DNA from: Okeania sp. KiyG1
GTDB lineage: Bacteria > Cyanobacteriota > Cyanobacteriia > Cyanobacteriales > Microcoleaceae
NCBI RefSeq assembly: GCF_014132355.1
Contig: NZ_BLZO01000089.1
Coordinates: 62,001 to 126,000 of the forward strand
Reading direction: 5' to 3'
Length of the DNA stretch: 64,000 nucleotides
Below, one piece after another: positions 11,720-57,083 of the stretch. The notes under the pieces are model-generated. The model saw only the letters and a program-made list of their open reading frames with translations. It did not search any database and was not told where the DNA came from. The translations under genes were made by a program, and so were the position numbers. Within the stretch, counting starts at the first letter, position 1; every line of letters starts with the position of its first letter.

Positions 11720-12151
11720 ATGAGTAAGAAGAATAAAATTAGGGTCTTAGCTTTGGGTTTAATTAGAGATGGCGATCGCTTGTTTATTTCTCAAGGTTAT
11801 GACTCTGTAAAACAGGAATTTTTCTATCGGGTTATGGGTGGGGGTGTTGATTTTGGAGAATACAGTCGTGATGCTTTACAAAGAGAGTTTCAAGAAGAGA
11901 TTCAAGCTGAATTGACTAATATTAAATATCTGGGTTGCATGGAAAACATTTTTATATTTAATGGGGAGGAAAGACATGAGTTAATTCAATTATATAAATG
12001 TGATTTTGCCGATAAAAAGTTTTATCAAAGAAAAGAATTAACTTTTTGGGAGAAGGAACGAAAGAAAACCGCACTTTGGATTTCAATAGATAGATTTAAG
12101 TCTGGAGAATTGAAAATAGTTCCAGAAAATTTTTTAGAGTATTGTGATTAG
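11720..12151 (+). CDS. NUDIX hydrolase
   Basis: A 143-residue NUDIX protein. The Nudix box runs at about residues 41-63: GGVDFGE, then seven residues, then REFQEE. The usual Gly after EE is replaced by Gln (IQAEL). These glutamates bind the divalent metal that cleaves nucleoside-diphosphate-linked substrates; the substrate cannot be read from sequence. The next gene starts 14 bases after the stop, so the two are probably co-transcribed. The ATG at 11720 gives [15 protein letters not shown], a normal first strand. Confidence 0.88.
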
Positions 12152-38345: not shown

Positions 38346-38503
38346 TCTTTCTTCTTCCTTCTTCCTTCTTCCTTCTTCCTTCTTCCTTCTTCCTTCTTCC
38401 TTCTTCCTTCTTACTTCTTACTTCTTACTTCTTCCTTCTTACTTCTTCCTTCTTACTTCTTCCTTCTTCCTTCTTACTTCTTCCTTCTTCCTTCTTCCTT
38501 GTG
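38333..38503. repeat. TTCTTCC pyrimidine repeat tract
   Basis: About 170 bases of TTCTTCC and TTCTTAC heptamers on the plus strand, the longest such tract in the window, ending 53 bases before the dndE start. An apparent 110-codon frame here is all repeat (FFLLPSS). Confidence 0.85.
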
Positions 38504-38555
38504 ATACAATCAAACTTAATAACATTTACTCGAAGGGTAACTTTAAATACCTTTA

Positions 38556-38948
38556 ATGGAACCACCAATTGAAAGAATACGACTTTCTCAAACAGCCAAA
38601 GAACAGTTAACTAAACTGAAGCGTAATACCAAAATAGACCAATGGAATATTCTTTGTCGTTGGGCATTTTGTTGCTCTTTAGCAGAACCAAGCATTCCCT
38701 CTCCAGTACCAATCCCTACTGATAGTAATTTAGAATTAACATGGAGAATTTTCGGTGGAGAATTTTCTGACATCTTTTTATTGGCTCTCAAACAACGTTG
38801 CTATAATGATGGAATAGGCATAGAACGGGAAACTTTGGCCGCCCAATTTCGCCTACACTTGCATCGAGGTATTGGATATTTAGCTGGTAACCCAAATATC
38901 AAAAGGATAGAAGACTTAATTGTAATTGCGATTCCTTCTCTCGACTAA
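38556..38948 (+). CDS. dndE: DNA sulfur modification protein DndE
   Basis: A 130-residue DndE-family protein. It opens with PIERIRLSQTAKEQLTKLKRNTK, followed by the family's RWAFCCSLAEPSIPSP, TWRIFGGEFSDIFLLALKQRC and AQFRLHLHRGIGYLAGN. DndE binds nicked DNA and works with DndA/C/D to place a sulfur in the DNA backbone (phosphorothioation). No dndB, C or D lies in the window, and upstream is only a repeat tract. It is therefore either a stray relic, a lone gene with partners elsewhere, or a recruited protein with another job. The start ATG at 38556 gives the family's standard N-terminus. Confidence 0.88.
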   Translation: MEPPIERIRLSQTAKEQLTKLKRNTKIDQWNILCRWAFCCSLAEPSIPSPVPIPTDSNLELTWRIFGGEFSDIFLLALKQRCYNDGIGIERETLAAQFRLHLHRGIGYLAGNPNIKRIEDLIVIAIPSLD

Positions 38949-39189
38949 ATTTTAACTCCAAATATTAAAAATTTAAGTAGTTTTTGTTATAGATAGAGAG
39001 CAACTATCAGTTTATTAAGAACTATAGTTTATGTAACTAAATCGTTACATCAAATTGTAATTTAATATAATGGAAATTGAATAAATCAAGTAGAAAAGGT
39101 AAGTTAGTAATATAGAAGTATTCTTATCCTAAGTTTGAGGTTAAACAGCTAGGTAGGTTAAATAAATATTTGAACAAAGGATATATGCA

Positions 39190-39618
39190 ATGATTCAGCC
39201 TAATTCAAAAAAGAAATATCTTAATGTTATGGAACAGATGGTAACAGAAGAAGTAAATCGCCAAATTACCTTGTTGCCTCAAAAGTTAGCGAAATATATT
39301 AAGCGAGCTGATGTAGAAACTTATGCACTGAATCGTCTCCCACCATTATATGCTTCTAGTCAAGAAGGCTGGAAATTTCAAACGAAAAAAGCAGAAGAAG
39401 ATTATAGAAAGGAGATAGCAGTAGTAGTACGTCATGCTTTTGCAGCAGTGCAAAGAGACCTTTTAAAAAGTTCAACTCCTCTATTTAGAGAGGAGACCAA
39501 AAAAGTACCTTCCTCAGTGGCACAAACAGAAGGATCTACGGCAGAAAATAAACAAAGCAGTAAAAATTATAATTGGAAACATGGTCAATACTATCGTTTA
39601 GGTAGTTCTAGAAAATAA
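39190..39618 (+). CDS. ComFB-family protein
   Basis: A 142-residue protein with the ComFB core (residues 1-105): YLNVMEQMVTEEVNRQ, LPQKLAKYIKRADVETYALNRLPPLYASS, HAFAAVQRDLLKSSTPL. A polar tail of about 40 residues follows. The cyanobacterial family has been linked to cyclic dinucleotide sensing, so a signalling role is plausible; no effector is nearby. The gene is 240 bases after dndE with no shared signal, so co-transcription is unlikely. Start ATG 39190 has AAAGGA at 39176-39181 as ribosome site. Confidence 0.8.
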   Translation: MIQPNSKKKYLNVMEQMVTEEVNRQITLLPQKLAKYIKRADVETYALNRLPPLYASSQEGWKFQTKKAEEDYRKEIAVVVRHAFAAVQRDLLKSSTPLFREETKKVPSSVAQTEGSTAENKQSSKNYNWKHGQYYRLGSSRK

Positions 39619-39798
39619 GTATATTTTGAAATGGTTAATAGTAATATCATCTCAAGATAAGAGCGTGACAAAAAAACTTTCTCCTCCTAATACCTGAAAA
39701 CTCCATCTTCGTTCCCTCCTGTACGTCGTCCTACAGACGCCTCCCCACCTAAACTCCTGACTCCTGACTTATGACTTATGACTTATAACTTATGACTC

Positions 39799-40617
39799 CT
39801 ATGATATGAATAAAGGAAAAAAATGCCCCACTGGACCTTGACCATGACCAATTTCTAAAGCATAGTCCAAAGCATTTGTGACATAATTCTTACCCAATTT
39901 AACTGCAGAAAATAAATCTTTCCCTTGAGCTAAATTAGCAGCGATCGCTGCCGAGAGAGTACAACCAGTGCCATGAGTATTATTAGTCTCCACCGTAGCA
40001 GTCCTTAAAATCTCAAACTGCTCTCCATCAAACCAAACATCTACTCCTCGCAACTCATTCTTCATAGCTCCACCCTTGACTAAAACTGTTTTTGCCCCTA
40101 AAGTATAGATTTTCCTAGCAGCCATCTGCATATCATCTAGGTTATTAATCTCTAAACCCGTAAAAATCTCTGCCTCATAAATATTAGGAGTAACAACAGT
40201 CGCCTTAGGCAGCAAAACACTCTGTAGAGCTGCAACAGCCAAATCATCAATTAACTGAACCCCTGCACGGGAGACCATCACTGGATCTATTACTAATGGT
40301 TTTAAATTTAAAGCTTCTACCTCTTCAGTTACAGCCAAAATAATTTCTTGGCTCAATAGCATTCCTATCTTAGTTGCTTGTACCCCTATATCCGTAACAA
40401 CCGCTTGAATTTGTGCTTTTACCGCTGCTGGGGACAAAGCATCAACCCTATTCACTCCCAAAGTATTTTGAGCAGTGATACAAGTCAAAGCGCTAGTACC
40501 ATGAACACAATGAAAAGCAAAAGTACGCAGGTCTGCCTGAATACCAGCTCCACCACCACTGTCAGATCCAGCAATAGTCAAAGCAACAGGAATACTTGGT
40601 GCCATAAAATTAGCCAT
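39799..40617 (-). CDS. thiD: Hydroxymethylpyrimidine/phosphomethylpyrimidine kinase
   Basis: ThiD phosphorylates HMP and HMP-P for thiamine synthesis. Its 272 residues show the ribokinase-like features: AGSDSGGGAGIQADLRT (about residues 17-33), TCITAQNT, VVDPVMVS-type motif LVIDPVMVSRAG, and the C-terminal anion-hole Gly-Thr-Gly-Cys in NNTHGTGCTLSAAIA. Length is normal. The first Met at 40617 gives MANFMAPSIPVALTIAG; M5 is an alternative. No TPP riboswitch is evident upstream. It is alone on this strand. Confidence 0.93.
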   Translation of the reverse strand: MANFMAPSIPVALTIAGSDSGGGAGIQADLRTFAFHCVHGTSALTCITAQNTLGVNRVDALSPAAVKAQIQAVVTDIGVQATKIGMLLSQEIILAVTEEVEALNLKPLVIDPVMVSRAGVQLIDDLAVAALQSVLLPKATVVTPNIYEAEIFTGLEINNLDDMQMAARKIYTLGAKTVLVKGGAMKNELRGVDVWFDGEQFEILRTATVETNNTHGTGCTLSAAIAANLAQGKDLFSAVKLGKNYVTNALDYALEIGHGQGPVGHFFPLFIS

Positions 40618-40780
40618 TATTTAAGATAAAATTTAGTAGTCAGTAGTAAATAGTTATTTTTATAGAGATTTTCAAATAGATAAACTGCAATGGATCGAAG
40701 CATTCTCCTGCTGCCTACTACCTATGACCTACGGACATTGAATGCAACGTCCCTACTCCCTAAACTCCAAGAATTGTTTA

Positions 40781-40944
40781 GTATACAAGACTTACGCAGA
40801 AACTCTACTTATGGCTAGGGCGTTTTGCTACCGCATAACTCCGTTAACGCTCCGCGACATGTAAAGCGGAACTTTGGGGAGCGCAAATGCCATTCGCCCC
40901 TACAAATGGTGCTTTAAAAGTCAATTTGCGTAAGTCCTGGTATA
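40781..40944. mobile_element. MITE with CAAGACTTACGCA ends, TSD GTATA
   Basis: The element at 40786-40939 has ends CAAGACTTACGCA and TGCGTAAGTCCTG. It is flanked by GTATA on both sides (40781-40785 and 40940-40944). The interior has GCCATTCGCCCCTACAAATGG, TAAAAGTCAATTTGCG and a CGCAT...CGCGACATG stretch not found in the 91-bp copy. No coding capacity. Confidence 0.85.
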
Positions 40945-41044
40945 CTTAAATTAATTGCGCTGTAAATACATACAGCAAAGCCCGTAAATACTACATAATA
41001 TTGACAAACTCTAGCTCAATCTATAGTTTCATACTATACAGAAT

Positions 41045-41215
41045 GCTGCGCAAACATATCGCGGAGCGTTAACGTTTGCGCCCTTCATGACCAAAAAATC
41101 AAGTTTCAAGCCTCCCCTTTTAAGGAGATAATAAAGAAAAAAATTTCCTTTTAACCAATTCTATCCGTTTTTAATAATTATTAATTATTAATTATTAATT
41201 ATTAATTGTTGAACT
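41045..41215. repeat. Intergenic palindrome, tnpB-end repeat and AATTATT repeats
   Basis: ATGCTGCGCAAACATATCGC...CGTTTGCGC (41043-41080) forms a palindromic element with half-sites GCGCAAAC and GTTTGCGC. Then comes an inverted solo tnpB-end repeat (TTTCAAGCCTCCCCTTTTAAGG..., about 41103-41170). AATTATT repeats (about 41175-41207) close the stretch. No gene is seen. Confidence 0.5.
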
Positions 41216-41267
41216 ACCTCTATTTATGGTAACTTTTGCTACAGCTACATAACTATTTATTTGATAA

Positions 41268-42539
41268 TTACCTATTTGAAGGTGGAGTCCGTCGCCTTTG
41301 CAGAAAATCAGGAATATCCAATCCTGGTAATTTTTTCTCCTGCTCAATGCTTTGAGTTGGAGCTGGAGTTGGAGTTGGTATAGACCGTCTTGGCTGTGCT
41401 ATTTCCTGGGTAGGATTAATTTGTGCTTCTCCACTAAAACCAGTTGCTATAACAGTAATTTTAATTTCTCCCTGCATTTTCTCATCAATTACAGCCCCAA
41501 AAATAATATTAGCATTAGGATCGACAACTTCATAGATAGTCTCAGCAGCAGTATTAACTTCATGTAATGTTAAATCAGTTCCGCCAGTAATATTAAATAC
41601 CACCCCTCTAGCTCCTTCCACTGAAGATTCCAGTAAAGGAGAAGAAATTGCCATATTTGCTGCTTCTCTTGCCCTAGACTTCCCAGACCCCATACCAATT
41701 CCCATCAACGCGGAACCTGCATCTGCCATAACTGCTCGTACATCAGCAAAGTCAACATTCACCAACCCAGGCACAGTAATAATATCTGAAATTCCCTGTA
41801 TACCTTGACGTAATATATCATCTGCAAACTTAAAAGCCTCCTGTACCGGAGTTTGTTCATTAATTACAGATAGCAAACGATTATTGGGGATCACGATTAA
41901 AGTATCAACTCTACTTTGTAAAGCAGCAACTCCTTCATCAGCTTGAGTAATTCGACGTCTTCCCTCGAACATGAAGGGACGCGTCACAATACCCACTGTC
42001 AGAGACCCTGCTTCTTTAGCAATTTCAGCTATAACTGGTGCTGCACCAGTACCAGTGCCACCTCCCATTCCCGCAGTAATAAATACTAGGTCGGGGTGGT
42101 CTAAGGCATTAGCTATTTCATCCCTAGATTCTTCAGCCGCTTTTTGGCCAATAGCCGGATTACCCCCTGCTCCCAAGCCTCTTGTAAGTTTTTGTCCAAG
42201 TTGTAAGCGTTTAGGAGCATTGGACAGGGTTAGAGCTTGGGCATCTGTATTAACTGTCCAGAATTCTATACCAGAGACCTCACTAGCAATCATTCGGTTA
42301 ACAGCATTGCCGCCACCCCCTCCAACACCTATTACTTTAATTTTTGCTGTATTACTTGGCACAATATCATCACTCCTAGATTCTTCCTTTGGGGTAGCTT
42401 TGGGGTCATAATTTTGTTCTCCATAAAGTCCCGAGCTATTGCGAAAGGGATTAGAGACATTTTTTGGTAATGGAAAATTTCCTTGTCCGTGGGATTGGGG
42501 ACTTTCATTATTGACCCCTTGTTGATTATTCACTATCAT
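41268..42539 (-). CDS. ftsZ: Cell division GTPase FtsZ
   Basis: A 423-residue FtsZ. There is an N-terminal extension of about 60 residues before the fold. The GTP-binding loops are [18 protein letters not shown] and the tubulin signature [19 protein letters not shown]. The T7-type loop is [12 protein letters not shown] Pro/Thr linker ends in the conserved tail [11 protein letters not shown]. It polymerises at the division site. In cyanobacteria ftsZ usually follows ftsQ directly. Here 3.1 kb with two dead tnpB genes separates them, so ftsZ must have its own promoter in 42540-42640. Confidence 0.95.
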
Positions 42540-42629
42540 TAATTTGGGGATGGTAGATATATAGTATTTTTTACTTGTGAACTACCGCTCAACTAAACTT
42601 ACTCAAACTGAACGAGAAGGTCTGAAAGT

Positions 42630-43870
42630 CTAGTCAAACGCAAGTGGATCAACCACTACAGGGTTAAACGGCAAACCCTTTATTCCTTGGTCCAAGACAT
42701 CAGGAATTACTTTTTAATTATATTAAACGACCCATTTACATCTGCATTTAATAATTTATTTTCCCTGGTTTTATACAACCCTCTTGTTACTCTTTTTCCA
42801 CTAAATTTCGGTTTTTGTTCTCCATATTTCGGTAAATCATCCCCATCTAAACAGCTCGATTGAGATGTATAGGATTCTTCGGTAATTATTACTTTTATTC
42901 CTCTTAGTTGGGCTTTATACCTTAACATCTCTATTAACCTATAGTGAGGGATATTCACAAATTGTTGATTGTTCTTTTTCCTAATTTTATCTCTTGTTTC
43001 CAAGTCTGATTCTGCCCAATAATTAAGGTTCCTATTTCATGCTTGATACACCAATCTATTACCCTTTTACTTGCTGTATGGAGATAGTTTTCTACTCGAC
43101 AATTTCGTTTCGGCTAAGAGCCGACATGAATGTGAGTTAATTTTTTTAACCGATGAGAATTACTTTGATTGTGGCTGATTTTTAATTGAGATTGTAAATA
43201 AGAGCGTTGTTTATTATAAAAGGTGTTAATTGCTTTTAATGGTCTGCCTTTAATCAACAGAGGTGTAGTTCCTGTTTGATTTGTCGTTACAGCTATTAAG
43301 TTATTTACTCCTAAATCTACTCCTGCTATTTGTTGATTTTCTGTTGTTGACTCCGATTTTTCATAGACTATTTCTATTATGTAACAGCTACTTTTGGGGA
43401 TAATTCTGGTTTCTATTATTTCTGTCTGTGAAGTGTGGATTTTTATTTCACTCATTGACAGATGACAAATTCCTTTTTTTAAGGTTTTTTGTATATTGAT
43501 TCATCAGGATAGGGCAGAATATTTCGGCATGCATGTTTTCTGTTTATATTTGGGGATTTTTGGTTTCCCTAAAAATTTATTTGACTGTTTTTGCCACTCT
43601 TTTAAAGCCGCAAAATAACTACTCCAAGCTGAGTCTAATCTTCAATGATTATTTGCTTACTTACTTTGGTAGGTAAAGCTTGATCATCTTCACTTTTAGA
43701 TACCTGGTGATACAGTTGATTAAAGCTTAGTTTCTTTTTGTTTTCAAAGAAATGTTGGCGATAATAATAGTTAGCTAAATTGAATAAATTTTTCGACAAA
43801 AAGCCTTGTGGTCTATTTCTGACCACAAATAATGTGATTTGGTAATAACATGACGTTCAACTAGCTTCAT
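42630..43870 (-). pseudogene. tnpB: TnpB remnant 2, several frame breaks
   Basis: From MKLVERHVITKSHYLWSEIDHKAF (start 43870) through FLSKNLFNLANYYYRQHF, VVYEKSES, GVDLGVNN (Asp), TEESYTSQSSCLDGDDLPKYGE (Glu) and NADVNGSFNIIKK (Asp) to a tail VIPDVLDQGIKGLPFNPVV ending at 42630. Three breaks (A/T runs 43798-43802, 42975-42979 and 42711-42715) are each repaired by adding one base. A fourth is a short insertion with the hairpin TCGGCTAAGAGCCGA at 43110-43124. The 'TEESYTS' subfamily matches remnant 1 at 1.5-2.8 kb. Two internal runs (43456-43634) have more changes, so it is probably dead. Confidence 0.85.
43110..43124. repeat. Small hairpin inserted in tnpB remnant 2
   Basis: TCGGCT and AGCCGA flank an AAG loop. 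The stretch lies exactly between the codons for LTH and KRNCRVE of the TnpB sequence, so it is an insertion of roughly 20 bases into the gene. Confidence 0.55.
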
Positions 43871-44006
43871 ATCCTAATTGTAGCTGATAACGACTCAATG
43901 AATAGACAACTGAGCAAAATTACTCATTTTAGTTTGATAGCTATAATTATGAGTAAGTTTGATGAACTTTAGATAAGTTTTTGCTTTCTGTATTTACCCC
44001 AACTTG

Positions 44007-45450
44007 CTACGCTGAAGTTGGGACTTCTGAACTCACAGGGGAATGCCTCAAGACAGACTTTTGCCCACTTTTTGGTCTTACTTCCCCTCCTTCCCTACGG
44101 GACGCTGCGCGAACAGCAGCAGTCCTTCCAAGACCGTATAGTTGTCTAATGTTTTCTGCTCTTATGTTTTTACTGGCATTTTCATCTCTATCGTGGTGTG
44201 TGCCACAACTAGGACAAGTCCATTCTCTCACATCTAATGGCATTTCTGACATTTGGTAAAGACAATTACAGCAAGTTTTAGAACTAGGAAACCATCTGTC
44301 AATTTCTATTAGCAAACCTCCTTTTTGTTGTAGTTTATACTCAACAAAATTGACAAACATTCCCCATCCCAAATCAGATATTGCTTTAGCTAGTTTATGA
44401 TTACATTTGCGCAGCATGACCTAGGAAACCATACCCTTGATATTTCAATTTTCAACAACCACTACCTGATTATCGTTGACGATTTTTCTGGATAATTTAT
44501 GTAGAAAGTCTTGACTGGCATTACTAATACGTTAGTAAACTCTAGACACTAGCTTGCGTGCTTTTTATCTTGACTTACTTCCTTTTTTCTTACGAGCTAA
44601 ATTAGCTTGTTTTCTTGCTAAATTTTTCTGATGTTTTTTCAGGCGTTTCGGATTAGTATATTTTGCAGTTTTACTACCATCATGGGTAATACAGAAATCT
44701 TTTAATCCCAGATCTATACCAATAATCTTACCAGTTAACAAAACTTCCGGAGTTTGCTGTTCAGTGTCGAACAACAATGAGGCATAATAATTTCGGGTAG
44801 GCGTTTTAGTTATAGTTACCGAAAAATTCAGGTATAAAGCCTCTCCATTCATGGAGAAAAAGCGGTCGAGGGATGGCGCAATTCGGAGCGGCTCTGATAA
44901 GAGCGGTCTCCTCACCATATCCAATCGACCAAGAGAAGAAAAAAAATCCTTTTATCCAATCCTCTTAAGTTTATAAGAAGAGGTAATTCTAAATTCTAAA
45001 TTCTAAATTCTTGAAAGTTTTTAATTGACCGTCAAATAATCTATGAATTGAGGCTTTAATTACTCCGACTTGAGGGATTTTCACTCCATTGTCAACTACT
45101 TGAGTGTCTTGAGGATATTGACAGGATTGTTTCCCATGATAAGATTTGAATCTCGGGTACTTAGCCCTTTTTTCAAAAAAGTTCTTAAATGCCTTAGTTA
45201 AATTGAGGGTTATTGACTGCAAAACTTGAGAATAACATTCCTTGAGCCATACGGTTTCTTGTGACTTTTTGAGCTTGGGCAAAACTTGATTGAGAGCAAC
45301 TTGGCTTAATCCATGGCCTGTTTGTTGATAAGTTTCATTGCACAGGTTTAAGGCATAATTCCACCACCATCTAGCACACCCCATGACTTGAGTTAGTTTT
45401 TGGGATTGCTCTAATGATGGGTAGATTCTGACTTTGATGGCTCTGTACAA
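44007..45450 (-). pseudogene. tnpB: TnpB remnant 3 (zinc-ribbon type), stop codons and an insertion
   Basis: The OrfB start MYRAIKVRIYPSLEQSQKLTQ is at 45450. The RuvC Asp is in GIDLGLKDFC, the Glu in VVVVEN, and the zinc ribbon is CCNC...CPSC followed by HHDRDENASKNIRAEN (Asp). It differs from remnants 1 and 2. It is dead: TAA, TAA and TGA replace sense codons in 44433-44570. A 195-bp repeat sits between LKT and VTITKT (44819-45014). Short palindromic repeats lie at the MLRKC junction (44405-44430) and in the C-terminus (RAASRREGG). These are real decay, unlike the homopolymer breaks elsewhere. Confidence 0.88.
44819..45014 (-). mobile_element. tnpB-end-derived repeat inserted in tnpB remnant 3
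   Basis: On the minus strand it runs AATTTAGAATTACCTCTTC...AGGATTGGATAAAAGG...CCATGAATGGAGAGGCTTTATACC...TTTTTCGGTAA. It is nearly identical at both ends to the left unit at 11.29-11.50 kb, including the extra ~80-base core. The interrupted codons of TnpB are LKT and VTITKT. This shows the repeat is a unit that moves. Confidence 0.75.
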
Positions 45451-45662
45451 AATAAGGCAGAAAAACTCAGGTTAACAACAAATTATTATGGCACAAGATT
45501 TGCTGAAAGTGGTCGCTCCTGCGGATTATCCACTGGTGGCTATTTATCCCCACCATAAATAATAGAGGGATAGGAAATTCTTGCGACATTAGGTTAAATT
45601 TACTTTGGACTTTTTATAAAATTCAAGGCTATATTTTAATATACTTTGAAATTATTGTCGAT

Positions 45663-46499
45663 TTAATTCGACTGAATTTTAATTCCTCTAGATTTATTTG
45701 GTAATTGGATTAAAGGAGATTCTGGATTTTTCAAATCGATATAGGCAATTCGGCGAGCATCAATTTTATTTGGTAATTCTCGCATTTGGTCTAGAACGTT
45801 TAATTGCTCGCTAAATCGAGAGCTGTACTGTCCTAGATGAACTATTCCCAGTTCAGTTGTTAGAATTAAGTTTCTTGGATCTTGCCAATTAATCTCGAAC
45901 ACTTTAACAGGGCTACGACTTAGACTTTGGTATAAAAGATGCCAATATTTACGATATTGTTCAGTAAAACCAATTACTTTTAAAGTAGGTAAGGATTGAA
46001 TTCTTTCTAGAGCAGAAAAACTTTCTAGAGGTATCCAGTTCCCTTCGGCATCTAACCACCCCATTTTTTGTGAGTTACCAGCACCTACTTTACTTTTTAG
46101 TTGAGTAATTGCTACAGGACGTCTTTCTGTAATCTCAATCTTTAAATTCGGGGGAAATAACTGCCGACTAATTTTTGCTCGAGCAATTGGGCCGTGGGAC
46201 TCTAAATTTTTAGCTAGTACCTGTGGTTGAATTTTCCAAAGAGACTGAGGATATTCTAAAGGAATTAGTGATAATATTGCTCGGTCTGAAAGTAATTGAT
46301 TACCTTCTACGCTTAACTGCTCCTGTTTAGTTATTAGCCAAATTGGCTGAGTAATTGCCCATAGTAAAGTTCCTGCTAAACCACCAACTGCTAGTATTTG
46401 CCATATTATAACTACTAATCTTAATCGTCTTTGACGCAGCAATATTTGTCGCCGACTTGACAAGTCATCTCGAGAAACTGATGCAATACTATTAGCCAT
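45663..46499 (-). CDS. ftsQ: Cell division protein FtsQ
   Basis: A 278-residue FtsQ/DivIB. There is a basic cytoplasmic start (SSRRQILLRQRRLRL), one membrane span (about 28-50, VVIIWQILAVGGLAGTLLWA), a POTRA-like domain (LSVEGNQLLSDRAILSLI, LESHGPIARAKISRQLFPPNLKIEITERRPVA) and a C-terminal FtsQ domain (TELGIVHLGQYSSRFSEQLNVL). It bridges early and late division proteins at the septum. The next gene in its direction would normally be ftsZ, but two tnpB remnants lie between them. Confidence 0.9.
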   Translation of the reverse strand: MANSIASVSRDDLSSRRQILLRQRRLRLVVIIWQILAVGGLAGTLLWAITQPIWLITKQEQLSVEGNQLLSDRAILSLIPLEYPQSLWKIQPQVLAKNLESHGPIARAKISRQLFPPNLKIEITERRPVAITQLKSKVGAGNSQKMGWLDAEGNWIPLESFSALERIQSLPTLKVIGFTEQYRKYWHLLYQSLSRSPVKVFEINWQDPRNLILTTELGIVHLGQYSSRFSEQLNVLDQMRELPNKIDARRIAYIDLKNPESPLIQLPNKSRGIKIQSN

Positions 46500-46582
46500 T
46501 TATTTCTTTATACTTACTTACTAATTAGTTAATGTTTTTAATGCTACCCTAGTTAACGAAGTCAGAAGTCAAAAGTCAGTAG

Positions 46583-46647
46583 GGGTGGTTTCCTACGGAA
46601 TGCTCCTAATTACGCGTTTACGAAGTATTCCGGAACGGAAACCACCC
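46583..46647. repeat. Palindromic element GGGTGGTTTCC...GGAAACCACCC
   Basis: Perfect 11-base arms at 46583-46593 and 46637-46647 close a loop containing CGGAATGCTCC and GTATTCCGGAACG. The inner CGGAATGC/GCATTCCG phrase recurs at least eight times elsewhere (for example 3822, 9299, 10573, 16978 and 48904). This looks like a REP-type family. Confidence 0.65.
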
Positions 46648-46960
46648 GTACAGAAGTTATTTTTGTAACGGCGATTTGAGCAACTCTCCAAAAATATTTC
46701 GCCTTAAAAGGCGGGGTGGCGCGACCCAATTATTTTGATAATAAGGCAAAAGTCAAAAGTCAAAAGTTAAAAGTAATTCCTGACCGAGTTTTATCCTTTA
46801 TAAATGTCCGCACTCTTTGTTTCTGCTGCTATAACTGATGAATTCAAATAATAAGCTTAAATTACTGTATATTAGAGGTTTTAAGTACTTAAAATATAAC
46901 TTTTTAATTCTTACTTTTGACTTTTGAATTTAGTGAATATGACCGATGTTTGCTTACATA

Positions 46961-47241
46961 ATTAGGGTTTGCTGATTAAATATAAAAGTCTTGAGCTATA
47001 AAGGTTTTGGCCTTTTTAGGCACTGAAAAAGTACCAGTTTTTTGCCTTACGGAAAGCTCAAAAAGTGAGTATTGGCGTAAGATAGAAGCAGAACAATCTG
47101 GGAATAATTTTTCCTTTGTACGTCCTCTACAACTCCTTATTCCTCTTGACTCTTCACTACTCCCTACTCCTGTACGGGCGAATCGCGATTCGCCCCTACT
47201 CCCTACCAAGCGCAAAAAGACTTTTTCAGCAAGCCCTAATT
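46961..47241. mobile_element. MITE of second family
   Basis: Left end TTAGGGTTTGCTGA (46962) and right end TTTTTCAGCAAGCCCTAA (about 47222-47239) are inverted repeats, as in the copy at 17.19-17.40 kb. GGTTTTGGCCTTTTTAGGCACTG is shared with that copy, while the middle (AATCGCGATTCGCCCC) differs. No transposase. Confidence 0.65.
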
Positions 47242-47540
47242 ATTATTTTAGTTTTGAGATATTTGAAATGTTTAGGGAACAGAAAACAGTGAAATTATCG
47301 TTAATTCTTTATGATTTATAGATATTTCTACACCTATAGATTTCTTTAACTAATCACTCCAATTTTAGATAGAAAAAATATCTAATTTATTTTCTTCTCT
47401 GTTCGTTTTTATACTCAATTTTATCAAATATTACTATTAAGGTTTAAGTACCTAAGGGTTAATATACCTCTTGCCCATATTCAAAAAATTAAAGAGAATA
47501 AAACAGTTAAGTACGATATAATGTTATCTTTTTTTTTGTT

Positions 47541-48896
47541 ATGGGAAAATCTGTGTTAGAGGCTCTTGACTTAATTAAATTTTACAAATCCTGTAACCCT
47601 AGCAAGACCTTGATAGTAGGACATCCTGAAGATGAAAAATATTACATAGATTTTGCCAGTGTTAGAGGTAGTGACATTATTCGAGAATTAGAAAGAACAA
47701 TAACACTACTATCTGGAAATCATCCAACTTGTCAACTATTTACAGGACATATAGGTTGTGGTAAGTCCACTGAACTATTTCGATTGAAAGATAAACTAGA
47801 AAAACAAGGATATCGTGTTGTTTATTTTGAATCCTCTGAAGACTTAGATATGGGGGATGTAGACATTAGTGATATTTTACTGGCGATCGCTCGTCAAGTC
47901 AGTGAAAATATGGAGCAAGCTAAGATTCAACTCAAACCAGGCTATTTCCAAAAGCTATTTACGGAAATATCAGAGGTATTACAAACCCCCATCCAACTTT
48001 CAGGAGAGGCAGAGGTATCTGTTGGTATTGCTAAAATTACTGCTAAAACTAAAGATTCTCCCAAACTACGTTCTCAATTAAGACAATATCTAGAACCACG
48101 AACTAGCACTATTCTAGAATCAATTAATAAAGAGTTACTGGGGCGAGCTAATACTGAACTGAAACGCAGGGGTAAACAAGGACTTGTGGTGATTGTTGAT
48201 AACCTAGACCGGGTAGATAATTCACCCAAGTCATGGGGACGTACTCAACCAGAATATTTATTTGTTGACCGAGGAGAGCAACTGAAAAAGCTAAACTGTC
48301 ATGTGGTTTACACAATACCCCTCACTTTAATGTTCTCTAATGATTATGGCAGATTATCCAGTAGATTTGGAGTTAAGCCAAAAGTATTACCGATGGTGCC
48401 GGTACAAGTCAGGAGCAAAAAACCGACGATGGAACCTAATGACTATGAACCAGGAATGTCGTTGTTACAACAAATGGTTTTAGCTAGAGCTTTTCCAGAT
48501 ATATCATCTCAAGAACGTCTAGAATTAATCTCAACTCTATTTGACGCCCCTGAAACTCTTAATCGACTTTGCCGTATTAGTGGGGGTCACATGCGACGAC
48601 TATTGATGTTGCTCTATAGCTGTCTACAGCAAGAGGACCCTCCTTTTTCTCGTAAGTGTTTAGAAAATGTAATTCAGGAATATCGAGATGACTTGCTCAG
48701 AGCTATTACTTTTGATGAGTGGGAATTGTTATTTAAAGTAGTACAAAATCAAAGGGTGACAGGAGAGGAAGAATGTCAAACTTTACTGCGAAGTATGTTT
48801 GTGTTTGAATATCGAGACCGGGATGGTCATTGGTTTGGAATTAATCCGGTTTTGGCAGAAACTAAAAGGTATGCTAATTGGATTAATGATAATTAG
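47541..48896 (+). CDS. P-loop ATPase, partner of the STAND/WD40 gene
   Basis: A 451-residue P-loop NTPase of the AAA/STAND-like group. Walker A is TGHIGCGKSTELFRL (about residues 72-86) and Walker B is VVIVDNLDRVD (about 215). The C-terminal half holds RISGGHMRRLLMLL, a sensor-2/winged-helix-like stretch. The N-terminus (KSCNPSKTLIVGHPEDEKYY) is typical of cyanobacterial ATP-binding proteins that sit beside TPR-STAND-WD40 genes. The STAND gene begins about 1 kb downstream in the same direction. I infer joint action, perhaps in signalling or defence; no experimental role is known to me. Confidence 0.8.
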   Translation: MGKSVLEALDLIKFYKSCNPSKTLIVGHPEDEKYYIDFASVRGSDIIRELERTITLLSGNHPTCQLFTGHIGCGKSTELFRLKDKLEKQGYRVVYFESSEDLDMGDVDISDILLAIARQVSENMEQAKIQLKPGYFQKLFTEISEVLQTPIQLSGEAEVSVGIAKITAKTKDSPKLRSQLRQYLEPRTSTILESINKELLGRANTELKRRGKQGLVVIVDNLDRVDNSPKSWGRTQPEYLFVDRGEQLKKLNCHVVYTIPLTLMFSNDYGRLSSRFGVKPKVLPMVPVQVRSKKPTMEPNDYEPGMSLLQQMVLARAFPDISSQERLELISTLFDAPETLNRLCRISGGHMRRLLMLLYSCLQQEDPPFSRKCLENVIQEYRDDLLRAITFDEWELLFKVVQNQRVTGEEECQTLLRSMFVFEYRDRDGHWFGINPVLAETKRYANWINDN

Positions 48897-48914
48897 AATT
48901 TCCTACGGAATGCT

Positions 48915-49690
48915 TCGCAAACAGAATTCAGAATTCAGAATTCAGGAGTCAGGAGAAAAAAATAGTGGTTAATTGACTTTTAAGTTTTAATTTTTAGCTT
49001 TTAGCTTTTAACTTAAAATTGATTACTTTTGACTTTTGAATTTTGAATTTTGACTTCAGAATTCAGGAGTCAGGAGAAAAAAATAGTGGTTAATTGACTT
49101 TTAAGTTTTAATTTTTAGCTTTTAACTTTTAACTTAAAATTGATTACTTTTGACTTTTGACTTTTGAATTTTGACTTCAGGAGTCAGGAGTCAGGAGAAA
49201 AAAATAGTGGTTAATTGACTTTTAACTTTTAATTTTTAGCTTTTAGCTTTTAGCTTTTAACTTAAAATTGATTACTTTTGACTTTTGAATTTTGAATTTT
49301 GACTTCAGAATTCAGGATTCAGGAGAAAAAATAGTGGTTAATTGACTTTTAACTTCTAATTTTATAATTTATAATTTTTAACTTTTAACTTAAAATTTAT
49401 CACTTTTGACTTTTGACTTTTGAATTTTGACTTCATATCACTTTTGAATTTTGAATTTTGACTTCAGAATTCAGGAGTCAGGAGAAAAAATAGTGGTTAA
49501 TTGACTTTTAACTTAAAATTTATTACTTTTGACTTTTGACTTTTGAATTTTGACTTCATATCACTTTTGACTTTTGACTTTTGAATTTTGACTTCATATC
49601 ACTTTTGACTTTTGAATTTTGACTTCAGAATTCAGGAGTCAGGAGAAAAAATAGTGGTTAATTGACTTTTAATTTCTTCCTTTTAATTTT
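48915..49690. repeat. Six imperfect tandem repeats between the ATPase and STAND genes
   Basis: The anchor AATAGTGGTTAATTGACTTT starts at 48961, 49082, 49203, 49330, 49489 and 49650, with steps of 121, 121, 127, 159 and 161 bases. Units are made of heptamers TTTTGAC and TTTTAGC, and of TCAGGAGTCAGGAG. This separates two genes that would otherwise be neighbours. Confidence 0.85.
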
Positions 49691-49899
49691 TAACTTAAAT
49701 TTTCTTACTTTTGACTTTTGAGTTCACATGACTTTTAACTTTTAACTTTTGTACGGGCGTTAACAATAGTTATATTATATCCGGATAATTAGTGATAAAA
49801 ACTTTATCCCTTCTAATCTTTTCTTCCCTTCTGCCTTCTGCCTTCTGCCTTCTTCCTCCTTCCTTCTTCCTCCTTCCTTCTTCCTTCTTCCTTTTAACT

Positions 49900-51207
49900 A
49901 TGAAAGATTTGAAAAATCTTGAAGAAAGTATCATCTACAATCAGCGATCGTTCAAAAGATTAATTAGGTCTATAACTCTTTCTCAAGGACAATTTTCACT
50001 GATTTTAGTTTTCTGTAACTATAAATGTTTACAGCAAACAATTGTTATGCAATTAAGAGATTTACCTTCGGTAGGAATTCAAGAAATAGTATTACCAAAA
50101 ACTGTTAAAACTCTTTACACAACTATTGATAAACAACTAGATGAATCTCCCAAACCATCAGCATTAATGGTGTTTGATTTGGAAAAAGTAGAGGCAATAG
50201 ATGAGCTACTGATATCTACTAATCAGGTGAGGGATGAATTTCGGAAAAAGTTTAATTTTCCTTTGGTTTTATGGATAACAGATGAGCTGTTGGCTAAACT
50301 AATTAAACTAGCGCCTGATTTTAAAAGTTGGGCAGCAGCGACAATCAAATTTGAACTAGCAGCTTGCGATCTAATAAGTTTACTGAGACTGGAAGTAGAG
50401 AATTATTGGATAAATGAGTTTAGTGATGAAAAACAAATAATACCTTTATCAACAAATAATACAATCTCTACTTTTTTACTCTACAATTGCGATGTTCAAT
50501 GCAATTGTTCTTCTTTTCAAGGATTAGGTAAAAATAAACGTCAAGAAATTGAGTTAGCTCTCAAAGACTTAAAAAATCGCGCTCAATATTTAGAACCAAT
50601 TCTTAAGGCTAATATTGAGTTAATTCTTGGTCGAGATGACTATTACAGTGAAAAGATAGATGCTGCTATTTTTCATTATCAAGAAAGTTTAAGTTTATGG
50701 AAAAATGAGGTTAGGGAGCAATGTTATCTAGATAAATCCAAGTCTTCTGGTGTGTCAATTATTAGCAGCAGATTTATCTTGGAAAGGCAAGGAATAATTT
50801 TATATAATATAGCCCTATGTTACTATCTGAAATCTACTCAAAACTCTCCACCTAATTTTCCAGAGTTACAACAAGCAAAACTGAAACTTCAAGAATCAAA
50901 ACAGTTATTTGAAAAAGTTAATTCTTTTAGCTTAGTAGCTCAAGTTATTGCAACACTAGGGCAAGTTATAGAAAAGAAAAAAGCTTGGGGGGAATTAGAA
51001 GTTATTGCCATAGAAGGGCTAAAAATACATCAAGAATATGGAAATGATTTACAAGTAGCACAAGATTATGGTTTTCTCGCAGAAGTAGCTTTACAAAAAT
51101 CTAATTGGGAACAAGCGCTGAAGCTATCTGAAAAAGCACTTAATACTTTATTTTATGCAACGGATATAACATTACCAACAGAAAAAATAGATACTTATTT
51201 TTACTAG
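49900..51207 (+). CDS. STAND/WD40 protein, segment 1: N-terminal and TPR region
   Basis: The true start is ATG 49900 (MKDLKNLEESIIYNQRSF); the 36 codons before it are TTCTTCC repeat. It has a first region of about 130 residues resembling a P-loop-free effector or sensor domain (LILVFCNYKCLQQTIVMQ, LPLVLWITDELLAKL), then a TPR-like part (DAAIFHYQESLSLWK, WEQALKLSEKALNTL). The frame ends at 51207. Adding one T to the run 51198-51202 continues it as LLARSLKKLDRQKEAIEYLEIAEV, a further TPR. It is therefore the N-terminus of the NTPase segment. Confidence 0.8.
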   Translation: MKDLKNLEESIIYNQRSFKRLIRSITLSQGQFSLILVFCNYKCLQQTIVMQLRDLPSVGIQEIVLPKTVKTLYTTIDKQLDESPKPSALMVFDLEKVEAIDELLISTNQVRDEFRKKFNFPLVLWITDELLAKLIKLAPDFKSWAAATIKFELAACDLISLLRLEVENYWINEFSDEKQIIPLSTNNTISTFLLYNCDVQCNCSSFQGLGKNKRQEIELALKDLKNRAQYLEPILKANIELILGRDDYYSEKIDAAIFHYQESLSLWKNEVREQCYLDKSKSSGVSIISSRFILERQGIILYNIALCYYLKSTQNSPPNFPELQQAKLKLQESKQLFEKVNSFSLVAQVIATLGQVIEKKKAWGELEVIAIEGLKIHQEYGNDLQVAQDYGFLAEVALQKSNWEQALKLSEKALNTLFYATDITLPTEKIDTYFY

Positions 51208-52277
51208 CAAGGAGCCTCAAAAAACTAGACAGGCAAAAAGAAGCTATTGAATATTTAGAAATAGCTGAAGTCACAGAAAGAAATGCAATTCAAAATAGTT
51301 TAAAAACTCAAAAAGTTAGAGACCCAAAAATTTATTTAGAGATTTTAACAGAATTGCGATCGCTTTATTATTACCAAGGAAAATATCTAGAAGCTTTTCG
51401 TCTCAAAAAAACACAGAAACAAATTGGTCATCAATATGGATTGATAGCTTTTATTGGTGCATCTCAATTACAACCACAAAAGCAAGTTTATCCCAAAGAA
51501 TCACTAGATTATTATCAGAATTTACCAGAAGAATTAACTGCTTCTAGTAGGCAAAAAGATATTAATAATCTCCTAGAAAGAATTAGTCGAGATGACCACA
51601 AATTAACTATTATTCATGGTCGTTCTGGTGTTGGTAAAAGTTCTCTAGTTAAGGCTGGATTAGTACCAGCTTTAAATAATATTAGTATTTCAGCAAGAAA
51701 TACGATACCAGTAGTAGTACAAGTATATAGTGACTGGCTGGAAACATTAGCAAATTGTTTACAAAAAGCTTTAGATAACAAAAGAAAGTTTCGACTGGAT
51801 CAGAATCTCATAAAACCGGAAATAAATTATTCAGAAAATGCAGCATCAAATAACTCAAGAAAATCTGATTTAGTAACGGAAAAAATTACTCCATATTTGC
51901 GTTACATTACAGATAAATTTAAAGCGGTAGAATCATCGATTTTACAAACTTTAAAAAACAATGCAGAGAGGAATTTATTAACAGTAATAATATTCGATCA
52001 ATTTGAAGAATTTTTTTTTATTAGCAATACCAGTGAAGAGAGAGAAGCATTCTATACATTTATGCGAGATTGTCTCAATCTGCCCTTTGTAAAAATAATT
52101 TTATCCATGAGAGAAGATTATTTACATTATTTATTAGAATGTGATTTTATTAATTATCTAGATGCCATTAACAATAATATTTTAGATAAACAAATTCGTT
52201 ACCATTTAAGAGATTTTTCTAGAGAAGATGCTTACACTGTTATAGAATGTTTGACAAAAGAGCTAAATTTAATTTAG
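51208..52277 (+). CDS. STAND/WD40 protein, segment 2: NTPase core
   Basis: It starts after the break at 51198-51202 and contains the NTPase: Walker A IIHGRSGVGKSSLVKAGLVPAL and Walker B LLTVIIFDQFEEFFF, with the DEDY-type sensor stretch ILSMREDYLHYLL. This is the pattern of novel STAND NTPases (nSTAND1-like). The segment stops in TVIECLTKELNLI. Adding one A to the run 52256-52259 restores RAKFNLEPKLIDVIVDGL. The internal Met at 51354 would be the first in-frame start if the segment were read alone. Confidence 0.85.
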
Positions 52278-52702
52278 AACCTAAATTAATTGATGTAATT
52301 GTTGATGGTTTAGCAGATGAAGGAAATAAGATTCGTCCGATTGAATTGCAAGTAGTAGGAAGTCAACTACAAGAGGAAAAACCTCCCATTAAAACCTTAG
52401 ACCGATTTCAGAAAAAGTTTGGTATTAATCCACAAGAAGCTAAGGAAAAATTGATTAAAAAGTTTTTGGAGCAAGTAATTGTAGATTGTGGTAAGAAAAA
52501 TGAAGAAACTACCATGCAAATTTTGTTTGCACTGACTAATGATAATTTAACCAGAGCTAGTAGAACTCAAACAGAATTATTAGAAAGAATTGAACAATTT
52601 ACCAAACAAAATTTGCTATCTACGTCTAATCATAAATTAGATAAAGCCGCTAAAAATCAACTTGATTTTACTGAGAAAAAGAACTTAATCTGCCAGAATT
52701 AA
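52247..52702 (+). CDS. STAND/WD40 protein, segment 3: winged-helix region
   Basis: About 150 residues, NLEPKLIDVIVDGLADEGNKIRPIELQVVGSQLQEE onward. This fits the winged-helix region that follows the NTPase in STAND proteins (RPIELQVVGSQL). It overlaps segment 2 by 31 bases only because of the frame break. It ends at DFTEKKNLICQN. Adding one A to the run 52676-52680 continues it as KELNLPELILEILIDSGLLF, then a coiled-coil. Confidence 0.8.
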   Translation: MFDKRAKFNLEPKLIDVIVDGLADEGNKIRPIELQVVGSQLQEEKPPIKTLDRFQKKFGINPQEAKEKLIKKFLEQVIVDCGKKNEETTMQILFALTNDNLTRASRTQTELLERIEQFTKQNLLSTSNHKLDKAAKNQLDFTEKKNLICQN

Positions 52703-55557
52703 TATTAGAAATTTTAATAGATTCAGGGTTATTATTTGTCAGAAAAGAATCCAATGAAAAACACTATCAGCTAGTTCATGATTATTTAGTAAAACCAATC
52801 CGTCAAAGATTTAATTTAGAAGAAAGATTACTCCAAGCTGAAGTAGAAGTTAAGCAAGCAGAAATCGCTAAAAAACAGGCGGAAAGTGAAAAAATCATTA
52901 GTCAAACTCAACTAAATATTGCCTTAAAACGACAACTAGCAGTAGCAATAGTTGGAATTATTTCCATGTCACTTTCAACCATCGCCACACTAGGTTTTTG
53001 GCAGAGAACAATATTTCAAAAACAGGTGGCAGATGCTCAAAGATACCGAGCAGATATTAATAGCATGACTGCTGCTTCTGAAGCATTATTTTTTTCAGAT
53101 TATAAATTTGATGCTCTGATAGAAGGTCTTAGAGCAGGTGAAAAATGGACAAATATCAAACAATCATTAGGTGAAAATCATCTATCAAATGAAACCGAAT
53201 ATCGAATTGCAGCTTCCCTACAGCAAGCAGTTTATGGAGTCAAAGAATATAATCATTTAGAAGGACATGGTGACGTAGTTTGGAGTGTAACTTTTCAGCC
53301 TCAAGGTAATTTAATTGCTTCTGCTAGTGTAGATAAAACCATCAAATTATGGACCCACGATGGCAAATTAGAAAAGACATTAAAAGGTCATACAGATAGT
53401 GTCAGCAGAATTAGTTTTAGCTCAGATGGAAAATATCTAGCTTCTGCTTCCCATGACCGCACAGTTAAAATATGGAACCTCCAGCAAACAAAAATTAAGC
53501 CTTTGAACCTGAAAAGTCATAGGGATGAAGTAACAGCAGTTAGCTTCAGTCCAGATAGTAAAATATTAGCATCGGGTTCCCAAGACAAAACCATCAAAAT
53601 TTGGAACAAAACAGGAACACTACTCAGAACAATTAAAACCAAAGCTGTTGTCAATTCAGTTAGTTTTAGCCCAGATGGACAAGTCATTGCGGCTGCTAAT
53701 GCAAATGGCACTGTCAAACTATGGAACCTCAAGGGTAGACTATTGGCAACTTTAAAACATAGAAATGACAATAATAATTATGCAGTCTACAGTGTCAATT
53801 TTTCTCCTGATGGTCGCAGCATAGCTACAGGAGGAGGAGACCGAACAGTTAAAATTTGGCGCTTTTCTAGAAACAGAGTTACTCTGGAAACTAAACTTGT
53901 CGGGCACAAGCAAGAAGTTCTCAGCGCTAACTTTTCCCCTGATGGTCAAATAATAGCTTCCTCTAGTGCGGATAATACTATCAAAATTTGGAACCGAGAT
54001 GGAAGTATGTTGAAGACTTTTGCTGGTCATGGAGACAAAGTTACTCAGGTTAGTTTTAGCCCCAATGGTCAGACCTTGGCTTCAGCAAGTTATGACAAAA
54101 CTATTAAATTGTGGAGTCTCAAAAACAGTTCTCTCAATATTCTACGAGGACATCAACACAGAGTTCTGGGTGTGACTTTCAATGAAGATGGTAATATGTT
54201 AGCTTCTGCATCTCAAGATAACACGATTAAACTATGGAGTCCTACAGGTAAGTTACTCAAGACTCTTCAGGGACATACAGATAGAGTCGCAAGTGTAAAT
54301 TTTAGTCCTGATGGTGAAATTCTTGCTTCTGGTAGTTATGACAATACAGTAAGGTTGTGGTATCTTAACTATCCAGAGAAAATCTGGAATTCAGGATTAC
54401 TTGATTATTCCAGGTATTGGCAACCACGAGGAGGAGTTGGGGAGTGGGGGAGTGGGGGAGCGACTCACACGGATTATGGCACGGATATACGGATAGGTAA
54501 GAGAGTAGGGGACTGGGGGAGTAGGGGAGTAGGGGAGATTGGATGTTTCGTGAAAATAGGTAATTTTTGTCTAGTTCCCTTCAGCAAAATTATTACTTTA
54601 TTTCCCCATAAAATTACCCTTTTACCACAGTTCAATTTTTCTACAAATCAATATTTTGAAGAAGGAAACTATAGCAATTTGACTAATATCCCCCCAGTAG
54701 GGACGTTGCATGCAACGTCCCTACAAGTAGAATTTTTAACTAGGCTACAATGTTGTTCAAAGGATATTAGAAATATTTGTCTTGATTGGAATTGGAATAT
54801 AAATTATCATTCTGCTTATCCTATCTCTAAGAATATTAATCTTATCGGGCATAGTGATAGTGTAATGAGTGTCAGCTTTAGTCCAAACAATCAAATTATT
54901 GCTTCTGCTAGTAAAGATAAAACAGTCAAGTTGTGGAACCGCAAAGGTAAATTACTCAAAACTTTAGTTGGTCATAAAAAATGGGTCAATAGTGTTAGTT
55001 TCAGTCCTGATGGCAAAATGCTTGCTTCTGCCAGTGATGATGGTACTGTGAAACTGTGGAGTATGGATGGTGAGTTGCTCAGAACTATTCCTGCTCATGA
55101 TAATTGGGTGTTGGGGGTAAGTTTTAGTCCTGATGGTCAGGCGATCGCTACGGCTAGTTATGATAATATGGTCAAACTCTGGAGTGTAGATGGTGAGTTA
55201 TTGAAAACTTTTTTAAAAGGTTCTAGTGATAGTGTAACCAGTGTTAGTTTTAGTCCTGATGGTCAGGTAATTGCTTCATCTAGTTATGATGGTAAAGTGA
55301 AATTATGGGGTCTTAATGATGGGAATTTATTGAAAACTTTGAGCGGTCATGGAGATAGTGTGATGAGCGTTAGTTTTAGTCCTGATGGTAAATTGTTGGC
55401 TTCAGGTAGTAGAGATAACACTATTATTTTGTGGAATTTGGCATTGGATAATTTGTTAGAGAAAGGTTGTAGTTGGGTGAGTGATTATTTACATACTAAT
55501 CCTAATGTTTCTGATAGCGATCGTCAGCTATGTCAAGTCTTTAAAAGTCAAAATTAA
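52703..55557 (+). CDS. STAND/WD40 protein, segment 4: coiled coil, membrane span, 14 WD40 blades
   Basis: The frame carries HYQLVHDYLVKPIRQRFNLEER, a coiled coil (QAEVEVKQAEIAKKQAESEK), one membrane span (VAIVGIISMSLSTIATLGFW, about 52948-53007) and then WD40 repeats. I count 14 blades with the pattern GH...V..V.FSPDG..(L/I)ASAS.D.T(I/V)KLW, enough for two seven-bladed propellers. Blades 9 and 10 are separated by an in-frame ~465-bp repeat-derived insertion (54370-54835). If read alone, the first ATG is 52966. The whole protein from 49900 would be about 1,885 residues with only homopolymer breaks. It is probably membrane-anchored and could act as a signal-sensing switch. Confidence 0.88.
54370..54835. 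repeat. Repeat-derived insertion inside the WD40 coding sequence
   Basis: Contains GGGGAGTGGGGGAGTGGGGG (54436), TCACACGGATTATGGCACGG, GGGGAGTAGGGGAGTAGGGG (54513) and a perfect 28-bp palindrome made of GTAGGGACGTTGCA and its complement (54697-54724). All of these are phrases found in intergenic DNA elsewhere. They stay in frame and add about 155 codons between the ninth and tenth WD40 blades. Flanking blade sequences are normal. Confidence 0.9.
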
Positions 55558-56315: not shown

Positions 56316-57083
56316 ATGAATGATAATGATAACCAGATATTGCCTGAAATGAATTCTCTTTGGCAGGAAACATTAAATTGGCAACCAACAGCAGAACAAC
56401 AACAACAATTTCAGCAACTTTATCGGTTGATTCTTATTGGCAATAAAAAGTTAAATTTAACTAGAATTACTACCCCAGAAGATTTTTGGGAAAAGCATTT
56501 TTGGGATTCCCTTAGAGGCATTAAATTTATCTTAGAAAATCAGATAAACTCACAAGAAGAAAAAAAGGTTATTGATATTGGAACTGGTGCAGGTTTTCCA
56601 GGATTACCAGTTGCTATTACTTTACCTCAATATACTGTTACTTTACTAGATTCAACACGCAAAAAAATTAATTTTATTGAAACTATTTTGGCAGATTTAG
56701 CTATTAAAAATTGTTTTACTTTAACTAACAGAATTGAACAAATTGGTCGGATATTTAAACACAGAGAAATTTATGATTTTGCTCTTTTAAGAGCCGTTGC
56801 CCCTACAATAGTTTGTGCTGAATATGCTTTGCCAATGTTAAAAATAGGTGGCATGGGAATTTTATATCGGGGAAATTTTACAACCGAGGAACAGGTTAAT
56901 TTACAAAAAGTTGTCAAAATTTTAGGAGGGAAAATCCATACTATTGAGGAATTTAAAACTCCCTTAAGTCAAAGTATTCGTCACTGTATATATTTGCAAA
57001 AAGTAAATAAAACTCCGATAAATTATCCACGTCCAGTTGGCGTACCTACTCAAAAACCTTTGAATTGTTTAAATAAATTTTGA
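56316..57083 (+). CDS. rsmG: 16S rRNA (guanine-N7) methyltransferase RsmG
   Basis: RsmG (GidB) adds m7G at G527 of 16S rRNA. The 255 residues show an N-terminal RLILIGNKKLNLTRITTPEDFWEKHFWDSL, which is the family's diagnostic start, then SAM motif VIDIGTGAGFPGLPVAI, VTLLDSTRKKINFIE and DFALLRAVAPTIV. The start is ATG 56316. The C-terminal ~20 residues after HCIYLQKV are extra compared with typical members. It stands alone here; in many genomes it lies beside gidA/parA, not seen here. Confidence 0.92.
   Translation: MNDNDNQILPEMNSLWQETLNWQPTAEQQQQFQQLYRLILIGNKKLNLTRITTPEDFWEKHFWDSLRGIKFILENQINSQEEKKVIDIGTGAGFPGLPVAITLPQYTVTLLDSTRKKINFIETILADLAIKNCFTLTNRIEQIGRIFKHREIYDFALLRAVAPTIVCAEYALPMLKIGGMGILYRGNFTTEEQVNLQKVVKILGGKIHTIEEFKTPLSQSIRHCIYLQKVNKTPINYPRPVGVPTQKPLNCLNKF

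Follow-up and report, generated by a model that had tools for sequence, protein, structure and literature searches.

A paired ATPase and STAND/WD40 gene beside ftsQ–ftsZ in filamentous cyanobacteria: a candidate division-linked switch

STAND proteins have been studied mostly as immune receptors. In the genome of Okeania sp. KiyG1, a STAND gene with TPR and WD40 repeats lies downstream of an ATPase gene, and the pair is arranged divergently from the cell-division genes ftsQ and ftsZ, which raises the question of what such a pair does there. The stretch analyzed, referred to as the window, comprises 64,000 nucleotides (contig NZ_BLZO01000089.1, positions 62,001–126,000). An earlier note on this DNA described the pair as a candidate signaling or defense module, and overlooked both the ftsQ–ftsZ neighbors and the broken state of the second gene. 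The answer favored here, to which we give a nearly even chance, is that the two proteins form an NLR-like, ATP-driven switch that has been vertically inherited at the ftsQ–ftsZ locus of filamentous cyanobacteria and is engaged in signaling linked to division or the septum. The pair and its division neighbors are as follows.

47541–48896, plus strand: AAA+/STAND-type ATPase, 451 amino acids, intact (from the list of open reading frames (ORFs), Pfam, and alignments)
49792–51207, plus strand: piece 1 of the STAND/WD40 gene, N-terminal α/β domain (N-domain, about 49900–50420) and TPR region
51354–52277, plus strand: piece 2, in a different frame, nSTAND1 NTPase core with Walker A and B motifs
52247–52702, plus strand: piece 3, in the third frame, segment past the NTPase core
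52966–55557, plus strand: piece 4, back in the first frame, membrane span and 14 WD40 repeats
45663–46499, minus strand: ftsQ, divergent from the ATPase gene (POTRA_1 detected; FtsQ_DivIB_C slightly below the cut-off)
41268–42539, minus strand: ftsZ

Of the 80 named loci (the best 80 of 196 found with the ATPase), 73 have at least 2.3 kb of room downstream of the ATPase gene, and 68 of these have a STAND relative there in the same orientation, which rules out a rare or accidental pairing. The exceptions are L045, in which broken remains are present, L049, L058, L060, and L061. Contigs C57 and C109 of the window's own genome carry additional ATPase–STAND pairs with this gene order. The two protein trees show matching groups of loci linked and not linked to fts genes, and their tree distances correlate at 0.96 for 41 linked loci and 0.86 for all 66, values of a height that common descent alone also yields. 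Because of this adjacency and the concordance of the trees, the suspicion that the genes rarely co-occur in related genomes has failed, and the two-gene unit proposed in the earlier note is strongly supported.

Among the 80 named loci, 48 have ftsQ head-to-head upstream of the ATPase gene, always in a single orientation, and 46 of these also contain ftsZ. The 48 loci span Okeania, Trichodesmium, Planktothrix, Kamptonema, Oscillatoria, Coleofasciculus, Symploca, Nostoc, Iningainema, and others. Another 32 loci come from the family of the window (f1); ftsQ is present in 23 of them, and the remaining nine have short flanks or contig ends. The linkage also occurs in genome G013 (L136). A class sample of 135 evenly drawn genomes, including that of the window, contains the ATPase in 43 genomes (called at E ≤ 1e-100), 11 of which have a divergent ftsZ within about 5 kb. 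For the ATPase tree (111 rows, 103 labeled), the distribution of linkage requires three changes, whereas 50 shuffles require 33.8 on average; for the STAND tree (61 labeled), it requires one change, compared with a shuffled mean of 16.9. These counts do not separate gain from loss of linkage. The conserved linkage to ftsQ–ftsZ is a property of a large part of the ATPase family, not of the whole family. HetR serves here as a marker of filamentous cyanobacteria, and the ATPase is present in 37 of the 67 HetR-positive and six of the 68 HetR-negative genomes of the class sample (Fisher p = 3.8e-9, with kinship and genome size uncorrected).

Other neighbors of the pair are retained less widely. When 10-kb flanks are compared, only ftsQ and ftsZ, among six window genes on the ftsQ side (35908–46499), have matches in 20 linked Nostocales loci. 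The range of matches to the gene at 39799–40617 extends to Coleofasciculus and Symploca, and the other three match only Okeania, Trichodesmium, Planktothrix, and close kin. On the opposite side, rsmG has matches in five loci. The region between ftsQ and the ATPase gene shows a few blocks in 18 Nostocales loci, none of which amounts to an interpretable motif.

46500–47540, no strand: divergent intergenic region between ftsQ and the ATPase gene
56316–57083: rsmG, beyond the STAND gene on the side opposite to ftsQ

Twelve Nostocales genomes carry one fts-linked and one unlinked pair, which offers a natural contrast between a putatively domesticated and a conflict-type copy inside one genome. In the ten that have been compared, the mean divergence of the ATPase is 2.2% for linked and 3.7% for unlinked copies, with the same direction in 42 of the 45 genome pairs; the divergence of FtsZ is 2.6% and that of FtsQ 9.7%. 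The STAND cores differ by 8.6% when linked and by 18.5% when unlinked (30 of the 45 genome pairs in the same direction). The length of the STAND frame is 1685 ± 17 codons at linked Nostocales loci (n = 17) and 1400 ± 355 codons at unlinked ones (n = 16, split genes included). Mobile defense genes are variable, patchy, and mobile, and so are the unlinked relatives; by contrast, the fts-linked Nostocales copy is fixed in place and near constant in length. A STAND protein is thus found fixed beside ftsQ–ftsZ and diverging, in the Nostocales compared, about as little as the products of those genes.

The ATPase ORF carries the Walker A motif GHIGCGKST and the Walker B motif VVIVDNLDRVD, as had been stated for the 451-residue protein, and the core residues of both motifs are invariant across 44 aligned relatives. 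In Pfam, AAA_22 scores just above and ATPase_2 just below the cut-off; the ATPase profile has no match among PDB sequences at E 0.1. The protein differs from the ATPase_2, Cdc6-ORC, TnsC, and CED-4 AAA+ folds, with 9–18% identity among the rows shown. Its nearest named relatives, among the matches listed (best 80 of 196), are from Okeania and have 95–96% identity.

The nSTAND1 domain of the second protein (PF20703, E 7.3e-24) is encoded in 51354–52277 and carries GRSGVGKSS and VIIFDQFEEFFF. The G, SGVGKSS, and DQFEE positions are invariant in 41 aligned intact relatives. This domain, in which both Walker motifs are intact, places the protein among the STAND NTPases. Pfam detects 14 WD40 stretches in 52966–55557, whereas TPR_12 in the upstream piece is below the Pfam cut-off in the window and marginally above it in the intact ortholog. 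A single hydrophobic span precedes the propellers in the ortholog (L043), and the same span sequence is present in piece 4, the frame of which is open from about 52690. The TPR-like region, STAND NTPase, membrane span, and 14 WD40 blades of the original description have therefore each been located in the pieces or the ortholog.

The N-domain of the STAND protein also occurs on its own. The class sample includes six f44 genomes, which belong to a different order, and in each of them the fts-linked ATPase gene is followed by a gene for a stand-alone protein of about 160–190 residues, homologous to the first approximately 150 residues of the STAND protein (32–34% identity to L043 for the two that were aligned). 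In the two genomes with long stretches (L207 and L208), the surroundings of the f44 ATPase yielded no STAND core. In G055, from the order of the window, the fts-linked ATPase gene is followed by a 187-amino-acid N-domain ORF (L139, 8017–8580), and a separate contig encodes an N-domain–STAND protein, for which the 15-kb stretch retrieved contains no ATPase. Since the small protein stands beside the ATPase where the large one is not found, we infer that the N-domain is the working partner of the ATPase. It may be the minimal partner, and the small ATPase/N-domain pair is a suitable object for biochemistry.

The predicted structure of the N-domain is a five-stranded alternating α/β fold with a predicted local distance difference test score near 88, and the model suggests a resemblance to a P-loop NTPase that lacks Walker A. 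In hhalign, neither the ATPase nor the STAND core showed sequence similarity to the N-domain (one run was forced global and is weak). Comparisons with Pfam and PDB sequences gave matches at chance level only, and those of the whole model with known structures were dominated by TPR. N-domain genes or remnants in short frames, with no strong ATPase hit listed, occur at G000:C12:1988-2452, G171:C51:22091, G183:C1:5228964, G015:C185:49950, and G162:C78:64931. The partner protein encoded on Calothrix NIES-4101 plasmid4 (L211, 11594–15499) has two tandem N-domains, and a similar tandem is present at G162:C20.

From its membership in the STAND class, the pair is expected to work as a switch driven by ATP, and it is the linkage and constraint that point to a task at division or the septum. 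In the proposed mechanism, the ATPase would dock onto the N-terminal α/β domain of its partner, the TPR and WD40 parts would pick up a signal at the membrane, nucleotide exchange would switch the nSTAND1 core, and the output would act on, or report, the state of the division septum. STAND pairs of the conflict type, the relatives of which are still variable and partly plasmid-borne, are the probable source of the pair. It is rather unlikely, although conceivable, that the pair represents an innate-immunity-like STAND switch domesticated as an accessory to the division and septum machinery, in which the ATPase and the N-domain–STAND–propeller receptor watch the septum or septal junctions and choose among division, connection, and death.

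The STAND/WD40 gene of the window is broken. In the earlier note the gene had been read as encoding one protein of some 1,885 residues; the domain order that it gave agrees with Pfam and with the intact sister genes, but the ORF list and three-frame translations resolve the gene into four pieces in three frames, which rules out a single intact 1,885-residue protein in the window. The gene likely starts with the ATG at 49900. Sister genomes contain it as an intact single frame of 1,873 (G005), 1,915 (G001), or 1,901 (G004) codons. On 124 kb of the window contig, 23 ORFs of G005 were matched; a frame change occurs in the STAND gene and one other, one further ORF contains a stop, and a short ORF at 15124 was flagged in a separate run. 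The contig therefore has other disruptions, yet the three frame changes within one gene stand out. Lineage-specific single-base codon changes in the window and three sisters have been counted in the style of nonsynonymous/synonymous changes (N/S). For the STAND pieces, N/S is 42/70 in the window, 20/29 in G005, 42/55 in G004, and 46/79 in G001. The window value falls inside the range of the sisters, and relaxed selection on this copy is not seen. Because N/S gives no sign of long decay, the fragmentation reflects either recent decay or indel errors. Provided that the sequence is correct, the switch is probably inactive in this strain or was lost recently.

A perfect 18-bp palindrome (54702–54719; found at 65 sites genome-wide) and a short tandem repeat (54503–54537) each lie in a coding linker between WD40 blades, and the frame stays open through both. 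The same palindrome is present at a different place (11983–12000) in the same gene of the sister locus L044; given the differing places, such repeats apparently enter this gene without breaking the frame.

Several observations weigh against the favored reading. Linkage is far from universal, with ftsQ absent from 24 of the 80 named loci despite at least 5.5 kb of room (the other eight being too short to judge) and 32 of the 43 ATPase-bearing genomes of the class sample not fts-linked. The loci L058, L060, and L061 retain the ATPase beside ftsQ, and neither STAND nor N-domain was found there. Within Okeania-type genomes, the STAND pieces (91–92% identical to G005) are less conserved than FtsQ (96%) and FtsZ (98%). 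The N/S of the window ATPase, 7/22, is the highest of the four lineages (2/13, 3/17, and 2/28 in the others), a slightly high value representing a modest excess in small counts. The association with HetR may be a reflection of genome size, and the idea of a degenerate NTPase in the N-domain comes solely from predicted strand order. The pair also decays in the marine clade: the STAND gene is broken in the window and in Hydrocoleum L045, the Trichodesmium bin L049 has no STAND gene within 5.4 kb, and G003:C201 (L190), from the same genus as the window, keeps ftsQ–ftsZ, whereas its ATPase gene is reduced to a first half riddled with stops near a contig end. No STAND match above 42% identity was found anywhere in the G003 genome. 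Because of such repeated loss and breakage, the pair is dispensable in the marine clade.

The protein shares with other nSTAND1 NTPases (PF20703) the NTPase core with Walker A and B motifs and the super-structure repeats TPR and WD40. It differs from them in having no recognized effector and in the extra N-terminal α/β domain, which is also found alone beside the ATPase. The antiviral STAND proteins of the Avs type have the same STAND switch and repeat sensor; however, in the protein studied here no N-terminal effector has been found, the C-terminal repeats are WD40 instead of TPR, and a membrane span is present. The pair is further distinguished from Avs by the ATPase neighbor in nearly all loci and by its inheritance with ftsQ–ftsZ. 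Of the profile searches suggested at the outset, the one against AVAST came out negative, as a PADLOC scan of the five pieces matched no Avs model. A known defense system was rejected, since PADLOC gave only weak matches to PDC-S20, mad8, ATPase-Toprim_I-B, and PDC-S27, in addition to HEAT-ARM_XIII; the last (E 1.8e-44) covers about 210 of 1,972 profile positions on the WD40 repeats and is taken as repeat-driven. NCBIfam gave no match above its cut-offs, Pfam detected no effector domain (such as nuclease, protease, or TIR) in the proteins of the pair, and neither MoxR nor vWA was found by Pfam in the five pair pieces and eight neighboring window ORFs.

Leipe et al. are said to have defined, in 2004, the MNS clade "Npun2340/2341 family" of STAND NTPases. 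That family, which bears the name of a Nostoc gene pair in the excerpted text of PMC8195603, may be the present ATPase–STAND pair. The STAND conflict systems of multicellular bacteria, as outlined in excerpts of Kaur et al. 2020 and of the same 2021 eLife paper (PMC8195603), share the NTPase with repeats and the enrichment in multicellular cyanobacteria; they differ in that no MoxR or vWA accompanies the pair here, and those excerpts do not describe a pair at ftsQ–ftsZ. The excerpts of a 2017 survey of prokaryotic WD40 proteins report no WD40 gene with broadly conserved neighbors over its seven cyanobacteria (PMC5587647), and passages from papers on cyanobacterial division describe ftsQ–ftsZ without this pair (PMC7766704, PMC7714070). 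According to one of these passages, Anabaena FtsQ binds the septal protein SepJ (PMC7766704). Among the open-licence matches listed, the excerpts contain no recognized description of the pair at ftsQ–ftsZ.

The architecture of the pair also fits an antiphage or programmed-death module, in which detection of an invader by the propeller and TPRs leads the STAND core to oligomerize, and division stops or the cell dies, with the position beside ftsQ–ftsZ being due to chance or serving growth arrest. The excerpted literature on conflict systems of the STAND type in multicellular bacteria agrees with this explanation, as do ATPase relatives on seven plasmid records from Nostoc, Acaryochloris, and Calothrix, three of them typed as conjugative. 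In one of three plasmids opened, Acaryochloris pMB06 (L210, 1–15400; conjugative type), genes for CHAT, NB-ARC, TIR, NB-ARC, and TPR proteins are followed on one strand by the ATPase/WD40 pair. Such plasmid-borne relatives look conflict-like; however, the fts-linked copy behaves more like a division-locus gene. The absence of an Avs profile match and of a Pfam effector domain, together with that of any match in phage records at E 1e-5 and the fixed position and near-constant length of the Nostocales copies, makes a defense module unlikely, and antiphage defense is not favored for this copy. The signaling half of the original proposal is upheld by the architecture, whereas the defense half is further weakened for this copy by a divergence like that of FtsZ and FtsQ.

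A regulator of physiology other than division, with the ftsQ linkage as an inherited accident, would accommodate the many ATPase orthologs that are not fts-linked. For the Synechocystis WD-repeat protein Hat, control of inorganic-carbon transport has been reported, and the pair might similarly govern, for example, inorganic-carbon uptake. We regard this as improbable, because ftsQ and ftsZ persist at the linked Nostocales loci where the other ftsQ-side genes do not and rsmG is matched in so few. An explanation with a serious, though less than even, chance concerns the window copy only and is compatible with any of the others: its STAND gene would be a recent pseudogene, formed by ordinary decay of an accessory pair. 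The three frame changes in one gene and the repeated losses in the marine clade agree with it; by contrast, the N/S of the window resembles that of the sisters, the pieces keep their identity to G005, and sequencing indels could account for the breaks, since other ORFs of the contig change frame too.

The window contains no tRNA or tmRNA genes. Between ftsQ and ftsZ, short ORFs occupy 44007–45450 on the minus strand; the part at 44989–45450 matches HTH_OrfB_IS605, and the ORFs are probably a broken IS605-type element. The ATPase gene is separated from the STAND gene by a repeat-containing spacer.

48934–49718, no strand: tandem-repeat spacer with units of about 121 and 161 bp

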